64,000 bases of DNA, taken from positions 9,431,683 through 9,495,682 of the forward strand of contig OY735212.1 of the NCBI GenBank assembly GCA_963457665.1. Direction: 5' to 3'. Below are positions 1 to 29,316 of the stretch, in pieces (the first letter of the stretch is position 1; the number at the start of each line of letters is the position of its first letter). Under the pieces are notes generated by a model. It saw nothing but the letters and a program-made list of their open reading frames with translations. It was not told where the DNA came from and ran no database searches. The translations under genes were made by a program, and so were the position numbers. This stretch comes from Thysanoteuthis rhombus. Its lineage: Eukaryota; Mollusca; Cephalopoda; Oegopsida; Thysanoteuthidae.

Positions 1-2470
1 CTGGGTTTTCCAGTATTGTGTTCAGGAGTGTTTCCTCGCTGTTTCGTCTTCTCTTACTTATGGTATAAACTAAAGAAAATATCTATCTATCTTTTATTGA
101 GTTACTGATAATTTTCTTTGAAGGATTTTTCTTCCGTACGTTGGCCAACCGTGTTTGAAATAAGTGCATATTTCATTCAATAATTAAAACATTTTTTTCC
201 GCCCAGAAACAATGCGTTTGCTTTCTCAGATATCACAGTTTTTGGTGGATAAATAAAGAAAAGGATACAATAAAAACGATTATATGTCAAAAAAGAGTTG
301 AGGAAAAAGGGAAAGATATGAGATTGGACGCTGAATGATATAGAAATAAGCTCCAGATTAAAAGTGGTGCGGGGCCTGTAGCATATGTTATAAAGGGGTT
401 CTATTTTTAGAAGAAACGAACTCATGAATATTACGAGACATAATCTTTTTACTTGGAGATTAAAATAGTCAGATTTTTCACGGTTCTTTTTTACATCTTT
501 CTTTCGATAAGCAATCTTGTATATCTCCTTTTGTCGTATCTTTCTTTCTCTTTTTTTTTCTTTTAACTCTGTCAACGAAATTGAAAAGAGGTATATGTTT
601 TCGATCGCCTCCGTCCGTTCGTCTTTTCATTAATTTGCTCATTCGTCTGTCCACACGATATTTTCCAAAGTCCACGGATATCTTTGATAAAATTACGTCA
701 AAGGATGTGCGATGGGTTAAAAAAAAGGTGATACAATCTGTGGATGGATCCATAATTTTTCCATTAATTATACATATTTATACGCTGACATTTTCTGGTA
801 AGGTACAAAATAGGTTACGGGATAAATGATTACATTTTCAAGCGGAAAAGTTCACAATTATCTCACTTACATCGTTGTTATACGTCCGACCCACATAAGA
901 GAGCCAAATATCATGTTTGTCTGTACAATGTCTCCAAAAGTTCTCTGTGGATTTCAATGATGTTGTGAGTAAAAGCAGACAACGTGGACTTTGGAAGGAA
1001 TATTTAGATTTTGTGGTGAACCTATGCACAATTATAACCCCTAACAATGGTATTGGCAGAGGTATGAGCTCTTTAGGTAGAGGTATGAGCTCTCCTGGAG
1101 CTTTATAATCTTTAAAAGAGATTTAAGAAAAGATGATCAAAACTGAAAATGACAAAATAGAGAGAAAAGACAAAAGTAAAAAATGAAAGAAGTAAACGAA
1201 GAAAAATGAAACAATGCTGGAAAAAAGAAAAACTTTCATTAACCCAACACCATTGGGACTAAAGGAGTGCTGAGTCAAGGAAAAAAGCCGAATTACAAAA
1301 AGAATTACCTCTAAGTAATAGCAAACTACCTCATCATAACTTTCGAATATCATGTGCGTCAATACAAGTTAGATAGTAAAGGGAGAGAATCGTTAAATGA
1401 GAAGCGCGTGAAAATTTAAGGAAGTGACGTACTGTGCAAACACAGATAAACCATATCTTCAATCGATCATAAACGATGTGTCAGCTTCAGAACACACGAT
1501 ACACTCTCCTAATTTACTGGAGCCATAAGTTGGGTTAGATAAGAGAAAGTGGTATTATTAATTGCAAGAAAACAATGTACAACCATGTGGCTGTGTTTAT
1601 AAGAGCACGTTGAACAGGAAAAGATCTACTTCTACCAAAACAAGCAAGTTGGTTACTCAGGAAAATTCAGAGTCAGTGCTGGATCGGTAGTTTTACCGTA
1701 ATAGAAATAGCCGGATCAGTGAAGTTCGAATGCCCGTAGCTGGGTTAGTGAACTATTGTAGCCGAACCTCTGCTGTAGATAGATTTGATTTTCGAGTTTA
1801 AACCATACCCTGACATACGCAATGAGAGCTCTATAAAACTCCTTTGTGTGAGATACACTTTTGATGTTCTGGTTTGAGCTGAAGAATGAATCTATTATAT
1901 GCAGTATCCGTTGATCAACGACCGAATGATTTGTAATTGAGAAGTATTGACCTTACCCTCTTTAACACGAAAGGGAAAGGAGAACCATTACTGTTTCTTT
2001 CTGTTTTTAATCGCTGCTATCAACAACAAACCACATTAAACACGGTTGCTTGGTTTAGGTTATTCATGTATTCTGGCATCAATATCTACATTTCTATGTA
2101 TCTGTATTCCAACTAGCCGTAAACATTCATAGTGGGAATTTCCATGCACAATTGGGGGGGTTCTTTTTTTTAATACCCTGCATAAATACGGTTTTAGTGA
2201 GTGTGTGTGTGTGTTTGGGGTCATTTAACAAATAAAGTTTATAGTAAATTTATCCTTTAGTTTGTGTCCGACGGCTTTCATACTTTTTCTTCCTTTTAAA
2301 CTTGTAGTCTTTTAGCGATAACTTCCCAAGAAAAGTAACTTATTCCTTGGTCACCCTTCTTTTCAAATTTTCAATGGAACTCCATACCAACACAGCTTGC
2401 TGTCAGAAGACATTCTCCATGTAAATGTGGATGTGCTAACTTACAAGTGATAAAAAATATTGATTTTGAT

Positions 2471-2473
<3 letters not shown>
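1..2473. other. AT-rich DNA, no recognised gene or transposon
   Basis: I see no coding signal here. Short reading frames on both strands are AT-rich and low in complexity and look like chance. The only local structure noted is an 18-bp direct duplication around 1055-1099, where GGTATGAGCTCT recurs. A short (GT)n run lies near 2200-2214. Confidence 0.6.

Positions 2474-2539
<66 letters not shown>
2474..2539. repeat. (TA)n microsatellite
   Basis: Uninterrupted alternating T/A for about 66 bp. It directly abuts the 5' side of the hammerhead-bearing repeat. The related repeat near 29170-29280 (opposite strand) also abuts a (TA)n array on the equivalent side. Confidence 0.95.
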
Positions 2540-2542
<3 letters not shown>

Positions 2543-2740
2543 CAATGCTCTTCCATAGGAAAAGAGCGCTCTGGTGGATGAGGAGTTTCAGCGTAAATGA
2601 ATCTATCGCTTAAATTCAGCCTTACTGACCACCAAGTTCAGTAGTCCAGAGGTGGGATATCGGCCTCCGGGTAAAAGTCTATAGCCACACTGAAGAGATG
2701 TAATACATCGAAACAGCTGTCTGTGGATGACACAATAAAT
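2540..2740 (+). mobile_element. dispersed repeat carrying a hammerhead ribozyme (possible Penelope-like or retrozyme-type unit)
   Basis: A non-coding repeat between a (TA)n array and the (AAT)n start of the R2-like LINE. Its middle (about 2611-2672) is shared with a second copy on the minus strand near 29171-29280: AAATTCAGCCTTACTGACC, then GGATATCGG and CTCCGG blocks are recognisable in both. The 3' end contains a complete hammerhead ribozyme. Hammerheads of this minimal type I form are known from Penelope-like elements and small non-autonomous retroelements of animals. No protein is encoded, so the parent family is inferred, not shown. Confidence 0.6.
2685..2726 (+). ncRNA. type I hammerhead ribozyme, all core nucleotides present
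   Basis: Self-cleaving RNA motif read directly from the sequence. Stem I is CCACA (2685-2689) with TGTGG (2722-2726), five perfect pairs. The first core strand is CTGAAGA (2690-2696), matching CUGANGA. Stem II is GATGT (2697-2701) with ACATC (2705-2709), five perfect pairs around an AAT loop. The second core strand is GAAA (2710-2713). Stem III is minimal: A2713 with T2720 and C2714 with G2719 around an AGCT loop. The cleavage triplet GTC ends at 2721, so cleavage is predicted between 2721 and 2722. A very short stem III is typical of hammerheads in animal retroelements, where dimeric action has been proposed. All catalytic positions fit the consensus; activity itself is predicted. Confidence 0.9.
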
Positions 2741-2751
2741 AATAATAATAA

Positions 2752-5055
2752 TTATAATGCCAAAAACTATTGGAATAGCATATGGGGGCACCCAAAAAGA
2801 CACAACGTAACACCGCAATGGTTAGGAAACATGAGAAAAGAACTAGAAGATATAGACAAGGGGGAACCAATAGTACTGAATGAAAACACATTGAAACATA
2901 TTCTTAGGAAAGTAGCCAACTGGAAAGCACCGGGGCCCGACGGGATCCATGGGTATTGGTTCAAAAAATTCACCACGTTACACGGCAGACTCACTCACCT
3001 ACTCCAAAATTGTCTAAATGAAGGCAAAGCACCAGAATGGATGACTAAAGGCAGAACCACCCTCATCCAAAAAGACCCGGGAAAGGGGAACATAGCAAGC
3101 AACTATAGACCAATCACTTACCTACCACTTATGTGGAAAATCCTGACCGGACAAATAGCAGAGAGAATATACATGTCAATGGATAGAAGGGGACTACTAC
3201 CAGAAGAACAGAAAGGGTGTAGGATAGGAACCAAAGGGGCAAACGATTTACTCTACATAGACCAGATGATCTTAAAAGAAGTAAGGAAAAGGAGAAAGAA
3301 TATTGCAATGGGATGGATAGGATTACAAAAAGGCATACGATATGATTCCACATAGCTGGATACTCGAATGCCTTAGAATGTTCAAAATTAGCGAACCGGT
3401 GGTTAAATTCATTGGTAATTCAATGGAAGACTGGAAAGTAGATTTGACAGCCGCAGGGGACAAACTAGCCGAGGTAGGGATAAAAAGGGGAATCTTCCAA
3501 GGAGACTCGTTGTCCCCACTATTATTTGTTCTAACAATGATACCGCTTAACAGAATCCTGAAAAACAGCAAAGGATACCACTTCTCTAAAACAAAAGGAA
3601 AGGTCAACCACTTAATGTACATGGACGATATTAAATTGTTTGCAAAAAACAGGGGAGAGCTTGAGACTCTGTTCAACGAAGTAAGGGAATATAGTGAGGA
3701 CATAGGAATGGAGTTTGGGATAGAAAAATGTGCAATCATGGTGATGCACAAGGGAAGGCTTTCAAAGACTGAGGGAATTGAACTTCCGGACAACAACAAG
3801 ATTAGGGCATTGACTGCACAAGACCGATACAAGTACCTAGGTGTCCTTGAATGTGACACGATAAAACGGGAAGAGATGAAGGAGAAAATTAAGAGAGAAT
3901 ACCTCAGAAGGATAAGGAAAATATTAGAAACCAAATTAAATAGCAGAAATCTAATAAAAGGAATGAACACCTGGGCTGTGTCAGTAGTTAGGTATACAGG
4001 ACCATTCCTAGGATGGACAAAGGAAGAGCTCCAATCAATGGATAGGCGAACAAGGAAACTTATGACGATGCATAAAGCATTACACCCTAGGGATGATACG
4101 GATAGACTATACGTTAAGAGAAAAGAAGGTGGTAGGGGGCTCATCAGCATAGAAGATTGTGTCCAGAGAGCTAAAGTAGTCCTAGATAGATATGTGCAAA
4201 CAAATAGTGAAGAAATCATAAAGAGCGCGAGGGATAGTGCAACAAACAATAAAGTAGAAAACAATGGAACAGTACAGCAAACTAGAAAAGAAAAGTGGGA
4301 AGGGAAAAAATTGTACGGCGAGTTTAAAAGACAGATAAAAGATATAGCAGACGAGAAATCATGGACATGGTTACGAAAGGGAAACCTTAAGAGAGAAACA
4401 GAATCGCTCATCATGGCAGCCTAAAACAAAAGCATAAGGACAAACTACATAAAAGCAAAAATCGACAGAACACAGGCAAACAGCAAATGCCGCATGTGCG
4501 GTGAAAGAGATGAGACAGTAAACCACATAACTAGTGAATGTAGTCAGCTCGCCCAGAAGGAGTATAAGCATAGACACGATAGAGTAGCAACGATGATACA
4601 CTTGGAACTAAGTAAACAAATGGGATTCAACCATGGGGAAAAGTGGTATCAGCACAAGCCAGAGGCAGTTTTGGAGAATGACAACCACAAACTACTGTGG
4701 GACTTTGACATCCAAACTGACCACCTCATCCAGGCAAAAAGGCTGGACTTAGTAATAGTAGACAAAAAAAAAGAAGGCCTGCCAAATAGTAGACGTTGCT
4801 GTGCCTGCAGACCATAGAGTAAAAAAGAAGGAGGGTGAAAAAAGGGAAAAATACCAGGACCTAGCAAGGGAGTTAAGGAAAATGTGGAACATGAAAACCA
4901 GGGTAGTACCGGTCATAGTGGGAGCACTAGGAACTGTCCCCCAAACGCTGAGGGAGAGACTGGAGGAGATCGGGATTAGGGGGAGGATAGAGACCGTACA
5001 GACCACAGCACTACTGAGAACTGCACGGACACTGAGGAAGGTGCTAGAGATATAA
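2752..5055 (+). pseudogene. R2-like LINE polyprotein: reverse transcriptase, CCHC, restriction-like endonuclease (disrupted)
   Basis: Would copy element RNA at a nicked genomic target (target-primed reverse transcription). Visible RT motifs: WKAPGPDG near 2921, SNYRPI near 3100, a frameshifted KKAYD motif near 3321-3341, FQGDSLSPLLF near 3500, and the active site YMDD at 3618-3629 (many LINEs have YADD). A thumb region with LYVKRKEGGRGLI follows at about 4108-4145. A zinc knuckle of form C-X2-C-X8-H-X4-C starts at 4488. The endonuclease block follows, with DLVIV near 4746 and then VPADHR and KYQDLARE after 4801. Three lesions are visible: one extra base at about 3320, shifting frame just before the KKAYD motif; a TAA at 4422-4424 where CAA is expected; and one extra base in the A-run at 4764-4772, against copy 2. 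Its endonuclease has LD where copy 2 keeps PD. The start is missing through 5' truncation. Confidence 0.85.
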
Positions 5056-5099
5056 GTACTGCAACGAATAGTAGCTCTGTCATGATATGCGAAAGAGGG

Positions 5100-5291
5100 A
5101 GAAGACGTTAGCTGAGGACCTGAGGAGACTTATTGTCACTCAGCCTTCAGCGATAACCACTGGGCAACCAGTGTGAAACTGTAAATCGTAGAATTACTGC
5201 GACCTATGAGTACTAGGAGAGGAGGGCTGGAGACTTGAGGAGACTTGCTGTCACTCAAACTCGAGCGGTTACCACCAGGCAACTGGTGTGA
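5100..5291 (+). other. duplicated, structured 3' UTR of the R2-like LINE
   Basis: Two imperfect tandem blocks share GAGGAGACTT, TGTCACTCA and a terminal hairpin. Hairpin A is 5158-5173: CACTGG, loop GCAA, CCAGTG. Hairpin B is 5273-5288: CACCAG, loop GCAA, CTGGTG. Both stems have six perfect pairs, and the two differences between A and B are compensatory in both arms. The GCAA loop is a GNRA tetraloop. In copy 2 the corresponding hairpins lie at 19408-19423 (one change, to a wobble pair) and 19523-19538 (identical). In R2-type elements the reverse transcriptase recognises 3' UTR structure, so this is a plausible recognition element; the role here is inference. Confidence 0.75.
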
Positions 5292-5295
5292 GATT

Positions 5296-5644
<349 letters not shown>

Positions 5645-5804
5645 GTCGGGCGCAGAAATGTTCGGGAATCCCTGCTATTGACTAAAGGCCAATATGTATA
5701 GCTTTTTCTCTAAGAATCATCACCATAGTCATCACATCTTTTTCAATTTTCTCCCCCTTTCTCCCCAAGTCTTCACTTTTTTTTAGCTTATCTGGTATCT
5801 CTAT

Positions 5805-18906: not shown

Positions 18907-19548
18907 ACAAGCCAGAGGCAGTTTTGGAGAATGACAACCACAAACTACTCTGGGACTTTGACATCCAAACTGACCACCTCATCCAGGCAAGAAGACCGGA
19001 CTTGGTAATAGTATACAAAAAAAGGAGGGCCTGCCAAATAGTAGACGTTGCTGTACCTGCAGACCATAGAGTAAGAAAGAAGGAGGGTGAAAAAAAGGAA
19101 AAATACCAGGACCTAGCAAGGGAGTTAAGGAAAATGTGGAACATGAAAACCAGGGTAGTACCGGTCATAGTGCGCGCACTAGGAACTGTCCCCAAAACGC
19201 TGAGGGGGAGACTGGAGGAGATCGGGATTAGGGGGAGGAAAGAGACCGTACAGACCACAGCACTACTGGGAACTGCACGGATACTGAGGAAGGTGCTAGA
19301 GATATAAGTACTGCAACGAATAGTAGCTCTGTCATGATATGCGAAAGAGGGAGGAGACGTTAGCTGACGACCTGAGGAGACTTATTGTCACAGCCTTCAG
19401 CGATAACCACTGGGCAACCGGTGTGAAACTGTAAATCGTAGAATTACTGCGACCTATGAGTACTAGGAGAGGAGGGCTGGAGACTTGAGGAGACTTGCTG
19501 TCACTCAAACTCCAGCGGTTACCACCAGGCAACTGGTGTGAGATTCCA

Positions 19549-19609
<61 letters not shown>
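18907..19609 (+). mobile_element. R2-group LINE, copy 2 (3' end only)
   Basis: The match to copy 1 begins abruptly at about 18908 within the CAAGCCAGAGGCAG sequence and continues through the 3' UTR to an (AAT)n tail at about 19548-19609. This is a classic 5' truncation. Identity to copy 1 is about 96% by eye over 630 bp; a 3-bp deletion in the 3' UTR and a few substitutions distinguish the copies. Both 3' UTR hairpins are kept. Confidence 0.9.
18910..19307 (+). pseudogene. R2-like restriction-like endonuclease C-terminus, frame intact
   Basis: About 130 codons without a stop, ending at TAA 19305-19307. The endonuclease would nick the target DNA to prime reverse transcription. Visible: WDFDIQTDHLIQARRPDLVIV (PD motif, near 18957-19010), then IVDVAVPADHR (second acidic residue, near 19039-19068) and KEKYQDLARELRKMW (near 19100). 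This order fits a PD-(D/E)XK-type nuclease. Unlike copy 1 it keeps RPD and has no frameshift in the A-run, so it serves as the reference for reading copy 1's damage. It lacks RT and zinc knuckle through 5' truncation and cannot act alone. No true start codon is needed, since it is the end of a longer protein. Confidence 0.8.
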
Positions 19610-22164: not shown

Positions 22165-22395
22165 ACCCGGACTTACAAGTCTTTACGACCATCCCTTTAG
22201 CAGGATGCGAGTCCACCAAAAGAATATCTCCACAATAATCTTACAGCTAAGAGTGTATTCAATTAGCAGCTGAGCGCACTGGGAAATGTCCCTAAATACT
22301 TCGCTCATACCAGGAATCAAATCCGGGATCTTCTGCGTGTGAGGCAGACGTGCTGACCATTAGACTTTCTTTCATGTGGACATGGATCATTGGAG
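22165..22395 (-). mobile_element. tRNA-derived SINE
   Basis: On the minus strand: tRNA-like head with TCTAATGGTCAGCACGTCTG (A-box region) and GGATTTGATTCCTGG (B-box; consensus GGTTCRANTCC). A body follows with CCCAGTGCGCTCAGCTGCTA, CTCTTAGCTGTAAGATTA and GTGGACTCGCATCC. RNA polymerase III would transcribe an intact copy and a LINE would mobilise it. The body is shared with the plus-strand SINE at 47480-47730. Confidence 0.85.
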
Positions 22396-29149: not shown

Positions 29150-29278
29150 TTATATATATATATATATATATTGATTGAAACCTTGCTCCAGATCCGGAGA
29201 CCGATATCCTACGGAACTGGACGGTCAGTAAGGCTGAATTTGATATATACTAGCTGGTTTCCTCAACAGTGAATTGCT

Positions 29279-29316
<38 letters not shown>
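29150..29316 (-). mobile_element. second copy of the hammerhead-associated repeat, ribozyme missing, between (TA)n arrays
   Basis: On the minus strand the unit begins next to (TA)n (29281-29316). It has a GAGGAAACCAG block where the first copy has GAGGAGTTTCAG, then AAATTCAGCCTTACTGACC, GGATATCGGTCTCCGG, and ends at another TA tract (29150-29171). The part corresponding to the ribozyme at 2685-2726 is not present. Confidence 0.6.

Follow-up and report, generated by a model that had tools for sequence, protein, structure and literature searches.

A type I hammerhead ribozyme motif in a probable repeat fragment of the cephalopod Thysanoteuthis rhombus

A type I hammerhead ribozyme had been predicted in a 64,000-nucleotide window of the Thysanoteuthis rhombus genome (GenBank assembly GCA_963457665.1, contig OY735212.1, positions 9,431,683 to 9,495,682 of the forward strand), on the plus strand and just upstream of a retrotransposon. 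The locus raises two questions: is this hammerhead genuine, and to what kind of element does it belong? We give a probability of about 0.5 to the reading that it is a genuine type I hammerhead, lying in the decayed remains of a short animal repeat, non-coding and similar to the non-LTR (lacking long terminal repeats) retrozymes. All positions below refer to the window.

The hammerhead motif

The letters of the motif, CCACA CTGAAGA GATGT AAT ACATC GAAA CAGCTGTC TGTGG, contain the complete catalytic core: CUGAAGA (of the form CUGANGA), GAAA and a GUC triplet at 2719-2721, with self-cleavage predicted at 2721/2722. These elements follow each other in the type I order (CUGANGA, GAAA, NUH) and are joined by three stems. 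Stems I and II comprise five Watson-Crick pairs apiece, while stem III is reduced to two pairs, A-U and C-G, closed by the loop AGCU. The sequence thus agrees with the original prediction, which had described every core position as present, stems I and II as five perfect pairs each and stem III as the minimal form with two pairs and a four-base loop. At the level of sequence, the motif is confirmed. It is the sole complete type I hammerhead found in the window on either strand under two sets of rules; CTGANGA and CGAAA strings at 5032 and 19284, both inside copies of a long interspersed nuclear element (LINE), failed the stem rules.

We estimated the rate of chance occurrence with a third-order Markov simulation of the window, run over 2.296 Gb of one strand and converted to rates per window for two strands. 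A single hit had the strict geometry, with Watson-Crick stems of 5, 5 and 2 pairs (5.6e-5 per window), 7 hits had a compact one (3.9e-4) and 138 a loose one (4, 4 and 2 pairs, G-U allowed; 0.0077). As the motif was selected after the sequence had been read, the loose figure is the fairest. Across this whole range, from strict to loose, the claim that the complete fold is very unlikely to arise by chance holds.

The Rfam covariance model Hammerhead_1, proposed as a check of the motif, matches 2683-2728 over its full length; the score is 23.4 bits, with an E-value of 5.1e-4 in a search of the 91 bases 2660-2750. The family's consensus loop is aligned with the UAAUA of loop 2. The check succeeds in part only: the model recognizes the motif, but with a score below the gathering score of 34, a cut-off that is an annotation rule and not a biological one. 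Rescaled to 64 kb by our own calculation, the E-value is about 0.36; the hammerhead is absent from the 67 matches (E<=1) of the whole-window Rfam scan, whose filters are stricter.

Folding alone and in pairs

When folded freely, the 42 nucleotides of the motif do not form the hammerhead core: the CUG of the core pairs instead with the CAG of stem III. This fold reaches -10.0 kcal/mol against -4.9 for the hammerhead, a gap of 5.1 (z -1.92; 13 of 200 shuffles are equally good). Helix I may extend beyond an internal loop (UAUAG/AU) by a distal part pairing GUC 2677-2679 with GAC 2729-2731; with the core kept unpaired, this longer segment folds at -9.3 kcal/mol, compared with -15.6 unconstrained, and stem III stays open. 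Energy models ignore the tertiary contacts of hammerheads, so that folding energies are weak evidence either way.

Stem III sits inside a perfect palindrome, ACAGCUGU, through which two copies could pair. A double hammerhead built in this way has an energy of -25.7 kcal/mol, 2.7 above the optimum of the cofold, while the monomer lies 5.1 above its own optimum. The palindrome therefore suggests that the hammerhead may cut best as a dimer, a mode of action that we infer by analogy. In the axolotl, HHR_Amex2 has a two-pair helix III with a tetraloop and is called 'similar to invertebrate HHRs', HHR_Amex1 has a palindromic tetraloop on a single-pair helix III, and both cleave poorly as monomers and more readily as dimers (PMC7229834). 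Most invertebrate retrozyme hammerheads, however, cut efficiently alone (PMC7229834, PMC7761336), which speaks against a dimer step, and a single copy of the present hammerhead may cut unaided.

The host unit and the neighbouring LINE

The features of the locus are collected in Table 1.

Table 1. Positions of the hammerhead, its host unit and its neighbours in the window.
Feature	Positions	Strand	Basis	Remark
Type I hammerhead ribozyme, predicted	2685..2726	+	Sequence, Rfam Hammerhead_1 match, chance simulation	
Hammerhead with possible distal helix I	2677..2731	+	Constrained fold	
Palindrome ACAGCTGT across helix III	2713..2720	+	Sequence, energy evaluation	8-bp helix III in the double hammerhead
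Repeat core of host unit	2612..2670	+	blastn, sequence, local alignment	Sister copy 29194-29241 (-)
Possible decayed 3' half of a second hammerhead	2554..2581	+	Local alignment	150 nt upstream of cut site
AAT tract between hammerhead unit and LINE	2738..2752	+	Sequence	Probable LINE insertion target
R2/R4/Dong-like LINE, 5'-truncated and frameshifted	2753..5348	+	RVT_1, R2 proteins, upstream-extending homologues	Ends in (AAT)17

The stretch that hosts the hammerhead is bounded by a TA array (2474-2539) upstream and by the AAT tract downstream, and no convincing coding region was found between them. An open reading frame (ORF) running from 2675 into the LINE crosses the hammerhead; its similarity to proteins starts only at the AAT tract, where the first aligned codon is 2747. 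The host unit is thus apparently non-coding, as had been proposed.

Part of this unit recurs in the window. Its core matches a sister copy on the opposite strand (blastn E 1.7e-6 across 33 bases): TTCAGCCTTACTGACC is identical in the two and GATATCGGCCTCCGG differs by one base. A local alignment of the two core regions scores 75, a value reached by none of 2000 shuffles (maximum 55). This one other copy has no recognizable hammerhead, and its comparison with 2671-2690 gives p 1.0. The core here is preceded by a TA array at a distance of 72 nt. The sister core is flanked by two such arrays (29151-29171 and 29281-29316), at about 40 nt on the side before it and 22 nt on the side after it. These arrays are a hint at most, since the window has 48 such arrays of at least 12 nt, 1851 bases in total.

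In IMG/VR, the hammerhead pattern occurred in 0 contigs and exact patterns of the core in 9 and 21; phage records gave no match at E 1e-5. Positions 2541-2737, aligned to all 30 of these contigs, yielded pieces of at most 22 nt, and the 251 bases around the longest exact match (21 nt, L027) show no further likeness. Neither collection is a good place to look for an animal repeat, and both may omit records of the genome from which the window comes.

Downstream, the ORFs from 2738 on encode a reverse transcriptase (Pfam RVT_1, E 1.4e-21), matched by 3720 database proteins at E<=0.001 and by 10 distinct sequences of the PDB, the best three of which are named R2 (9nl2_A, E 8.1e-13). A frameshift interrupts the coding sequence, two ORFs overlapping in different frames near 3321-3355; the alignment of the ORF at 3321 with an R2 protein of 1121 residues starts at residue 506 of the latter. 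Similarity to LINE proteins begins in the middle of the protein, at the AAT tract. We fetched 240 proteins, of which 161 could be aligned with the N-terminal piece. Its first 12 residues are reached by 55 of them; 34 of these 55 have at least 20 more residues upstream and 23 at least 50, the other 21 having fewer than 20, some perhaps because they are truncated themselves. In the 14 homologues seen in alignment, the upstream extensions are mostly alike. Since homologues extend upstream of the AAT tract, this copy is truncated inside its ORF and its true 5' end is absent.

It follows that the hammerhead is not the 5' untranslated region (UTR) of this LINE, a possibility that we reject for this copy and consider largely refuted. 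The hammerhead belongs to the DNA adjoining the LINE, which is probably an unrelated neighbour. The description of the ribozyme as lying next to a retrotransposon is accordingly right as to position, and has little functional weight because the LINE is truncated at the very AAT tract that separates the two.

The LINE shares with Dong/R4 elements an R2-related reverse transcriptase and an AAT tract at both ends, which is consistent with insertion into TAA/AAT tracts; the clade name rests on PMC3774820 and general background, not on a tree. The upstream tract is one of six TAA/AAT-type arrays of at least 15 nt in the window, two others of which stand at LINE 3' ends (5297-5348 in this copy). Dong is a member of the R4 lineage whose 5'-junction construct has TAA repeats upstream and whose RNA cleaves itself at the 5' end of the element (PMC3774820). 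In contrast, the present copy lacks the 5' end and with it the ribozyme resembling that of hepatitis delta virus (HDV): no HDV-like family occurs among the 67 Rfam matches of the window. The 3' ends of the hammerhead and of the LINE show no likeness beyond chance (p 0.75).

A second copy of the LINE (18907-19608) is 96% identical, truncated to the 3' end and terminated by a TAA array. The 3' UTR carries a diverged tandem duplication, 5111-5182 with 5226-5297 in the first copy and 19352-19426 with 19476-19541 in the second. Its hairpins, CACTGG-GCAA-CCAGTG (5158) and CACCAG-GCAA-CTGGTG (5273), differ in a compensatory manner and are found as a pair in both copies, the first hairpin of the second copy reading CACTGG-GCAA-CCGGTG. 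The hairpin is likely a stem-loop recognized by the reverse transcriptase.

As for the other Rfam matches, all 67 lie below their own gathering scores, and the five seen as alignments are simple repeats; repeats of the TA type underlie the sub-threshold microRNA matches. A tRNA-like match at 22309-22368 (-), with 26.2 bits where the gathering score is 29, is possibly a tRNA-derived repeat or a decayed tRNA.

Origin of the hammerhead

Hammerheads of this kind were said to be known from Penelope-like elements and from small retrozyme-like units, and the literature bears this out (PMC7229834, PMC7761336 and PMC6155905). In non-coding animal DNA, dispersed type I hammerheads occur in non-LTR retrozymes (PMC7229834) and also, in minimal form, in Penelope-like elements and Terminons, where they number in the thousands, mostly as dispersed motifs (PMC7761336, PMC6155905). 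The present locus is a further member of these published dispersed animal hammerheads. A small number of searches in the main texts of open-access papers yielded no work on hammerhead ribozymes in cephalopods, nothing on type I hammerheads with satellite DNA in molluscs or on retrozyme hammerheads in oyster, and the octopus together with the hammerhead ribozyme only within a reference list; the host unit is not named in the passages searched.

With the animal non-LTR retrozymes of Cervera and de la Pena 2020 (PMC7229834), the locus shares a type I hammerhead and, as far as its candidate unit holds, a short length, the lack of an evident protein and a low GC content; the amphibian representatives likewise have a short stem III with a palindromic loop. 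Animal retrozymes are short units, of about 150-400 nt, and their GC content is published as <50% (PMC7229834, PMC7761336). The candidate unit here would measure 150 nt (2572-2721), a length that depends on a doubtful half-site, and has a GC content of 0.45, within that bound. We lean to the retrozyme kind on account of stem III, with its two pairs, and of the loop aligned with the Rfam consensus. We take the loop AAUA to resemble that of Schistosoma Sm-alpha, our own comparison having been with the Rfam consensus only, and the stem III here to be presumably the shorter of the two. Sm-alpha, named in PMC6155905, is also a type I hammerhead in a non-autonomous retroelement.

If the locus is such a decayed fragment, we infer the following course of events. 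Read-through transcription of the plus strand would yield an RNA that folds and self-cleaves behind C2721; its upstream piece would end in a 2',3'-cyclic phosphate and its downstream piece would begin with a 5'-OH. When the parent element was intact, a tandem pair of hammerheads could also have paired through the palindrome and cut more efficiently as a double hammerhead; the released monomer would have been circularized by a host RNA ligase and reverse-transcribed by an autonomous retroelement. The neighbouring LINE would be a 5'-truncated insertion of the R4/Dong type into the AAT tract. With one intact hammerhead left, the locus cannot release a monomer of unit length. It probably has no present function, though the single hammerhead may still cut. 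The hammerhead would work like the ribozyme of a retrozyme, and the locus is probably a remnant.

The account is favoured by the complete core, rare by chance, by the Hammerhead_1 match, by the energy of the double hammerhead and by the second copy of the unit's core; several results weigh against it. No second intact hammerhead was found on either strand of the window, even under looser rules, nor a complete second copy of the host unit in the window, nor a tandem array of it in 2400-5700. Beside the sister core, no hammerhead remnant is significant (5' flank p 0.17, 3' flank p 0.36). The Hammerhead_1 score falls short of the family's gathering score. Folding of the region 2541-2760 outdoes 198 of 200 shuffles (z -2.18), a result in favour of the account; the fold obtained does not contain the hammerhead. 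The half-site that could mark a second, decayed hammerhead scores 25 against the 3' half (p 0.0045 from 2000 shuffles, as one of six comparisons); among 6394 tiles scanned, 11 reach 25 or more, three of them overlapping the hammerhead, one being the half-site and seven falling in two unrelated parts of the window, where the score rises to 29. As evidence for the account, the half-site is suggestive only, a lead. Nor is the candidate circle remarkable for self-pairing: folded with 2571 as its first base, one base ahead of the aligned cut site, it has a z of -0.69, and 72 of 300 shuffles are as stable. Known retrozymes form tandem or dimeric units bounded by hammerheads and express linear RNAs and highly self-paired circular ones. 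The window shows no intact unit of this sort, save possibly for the decayed half-site, and the candidate circle is not of that kind; we therefore do not file the locus as a retrozyme.

The main rival, which we hold as a tentative alternative, sees here a fragment of the pseudo-LTR of a Penelope-like element, or a dispersed minimal type I hammerhead derived from such elements. The short stem III and the dispersal in non-coding DNA would fit, and the TA arrays upstream of the unit and flanking the sister core recall the cleavage of AT-rich targets mentioned for one Penelope-like element (PMC11167929), as a hint only since the genome is rich in such arrays. Against this origin, Penelope hammerheads are usually devoid of helix III or of loop contacts (PMC6155905, PMC7761336), while here helix III has two pairs with a tetraloop and loop 2 aligns with the Rfam consensus; in addition, no Penelope domain (reverse transcriptase with GIY-YIG) appeared in the 14 ORFs scanned, a non-exhaustive sample of the window. 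A chance or dead motif devoid of ribozyme ancestry would account for the single copy, the sub-threshold Rfam score and the more stable competing fold, and is made very unlikely by the expected rates of occurrence.

Two further readings involve the LINE. In one, the R4/Dong-like LINE would have the hammerhead as its 5' ribozyme where Dong has an HDV-like one: the hammerhead precedes the LINE on its own strand, and self-cleavage at the 5' junction is known for both Dong and R4, in Dong just after the TAA repeats (PMC3774820). The start of the LINE similarity in mid-protein, with homologues extending further upstream, and the second LINE copy, truncated further and with no hammerhead near it, leave this idea highly doubtful. 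The other is a specific form of the original suggestion of an undescribed non-autonomous ribozyme-bearing family, a suggestion that one hammerhead copy in the window and a sister core without it do not establish. Here a new family with a conserved core (AAATTCAGCCTTACTGACC...GGATATCGGYCTCCGG) would exist with and without hammerheads and spread with an AAT tail through R4/Dong-type LINE machinery, not through Penelope enzymes; we consider this very improbable.

The locus adds one more type I hammerhead to those dispersed in animal genomes. It would gain weight if its copies in the genome revealed which autonomous element mobilizes such units, a role for which Penelope-like elements have been proposed by inference as likely candidates (PMC7229834, PMC7761336). 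Although nothing is established yet, the sister core free of a hammerhead, together with the AAT tract, offers a handle for finding that element.
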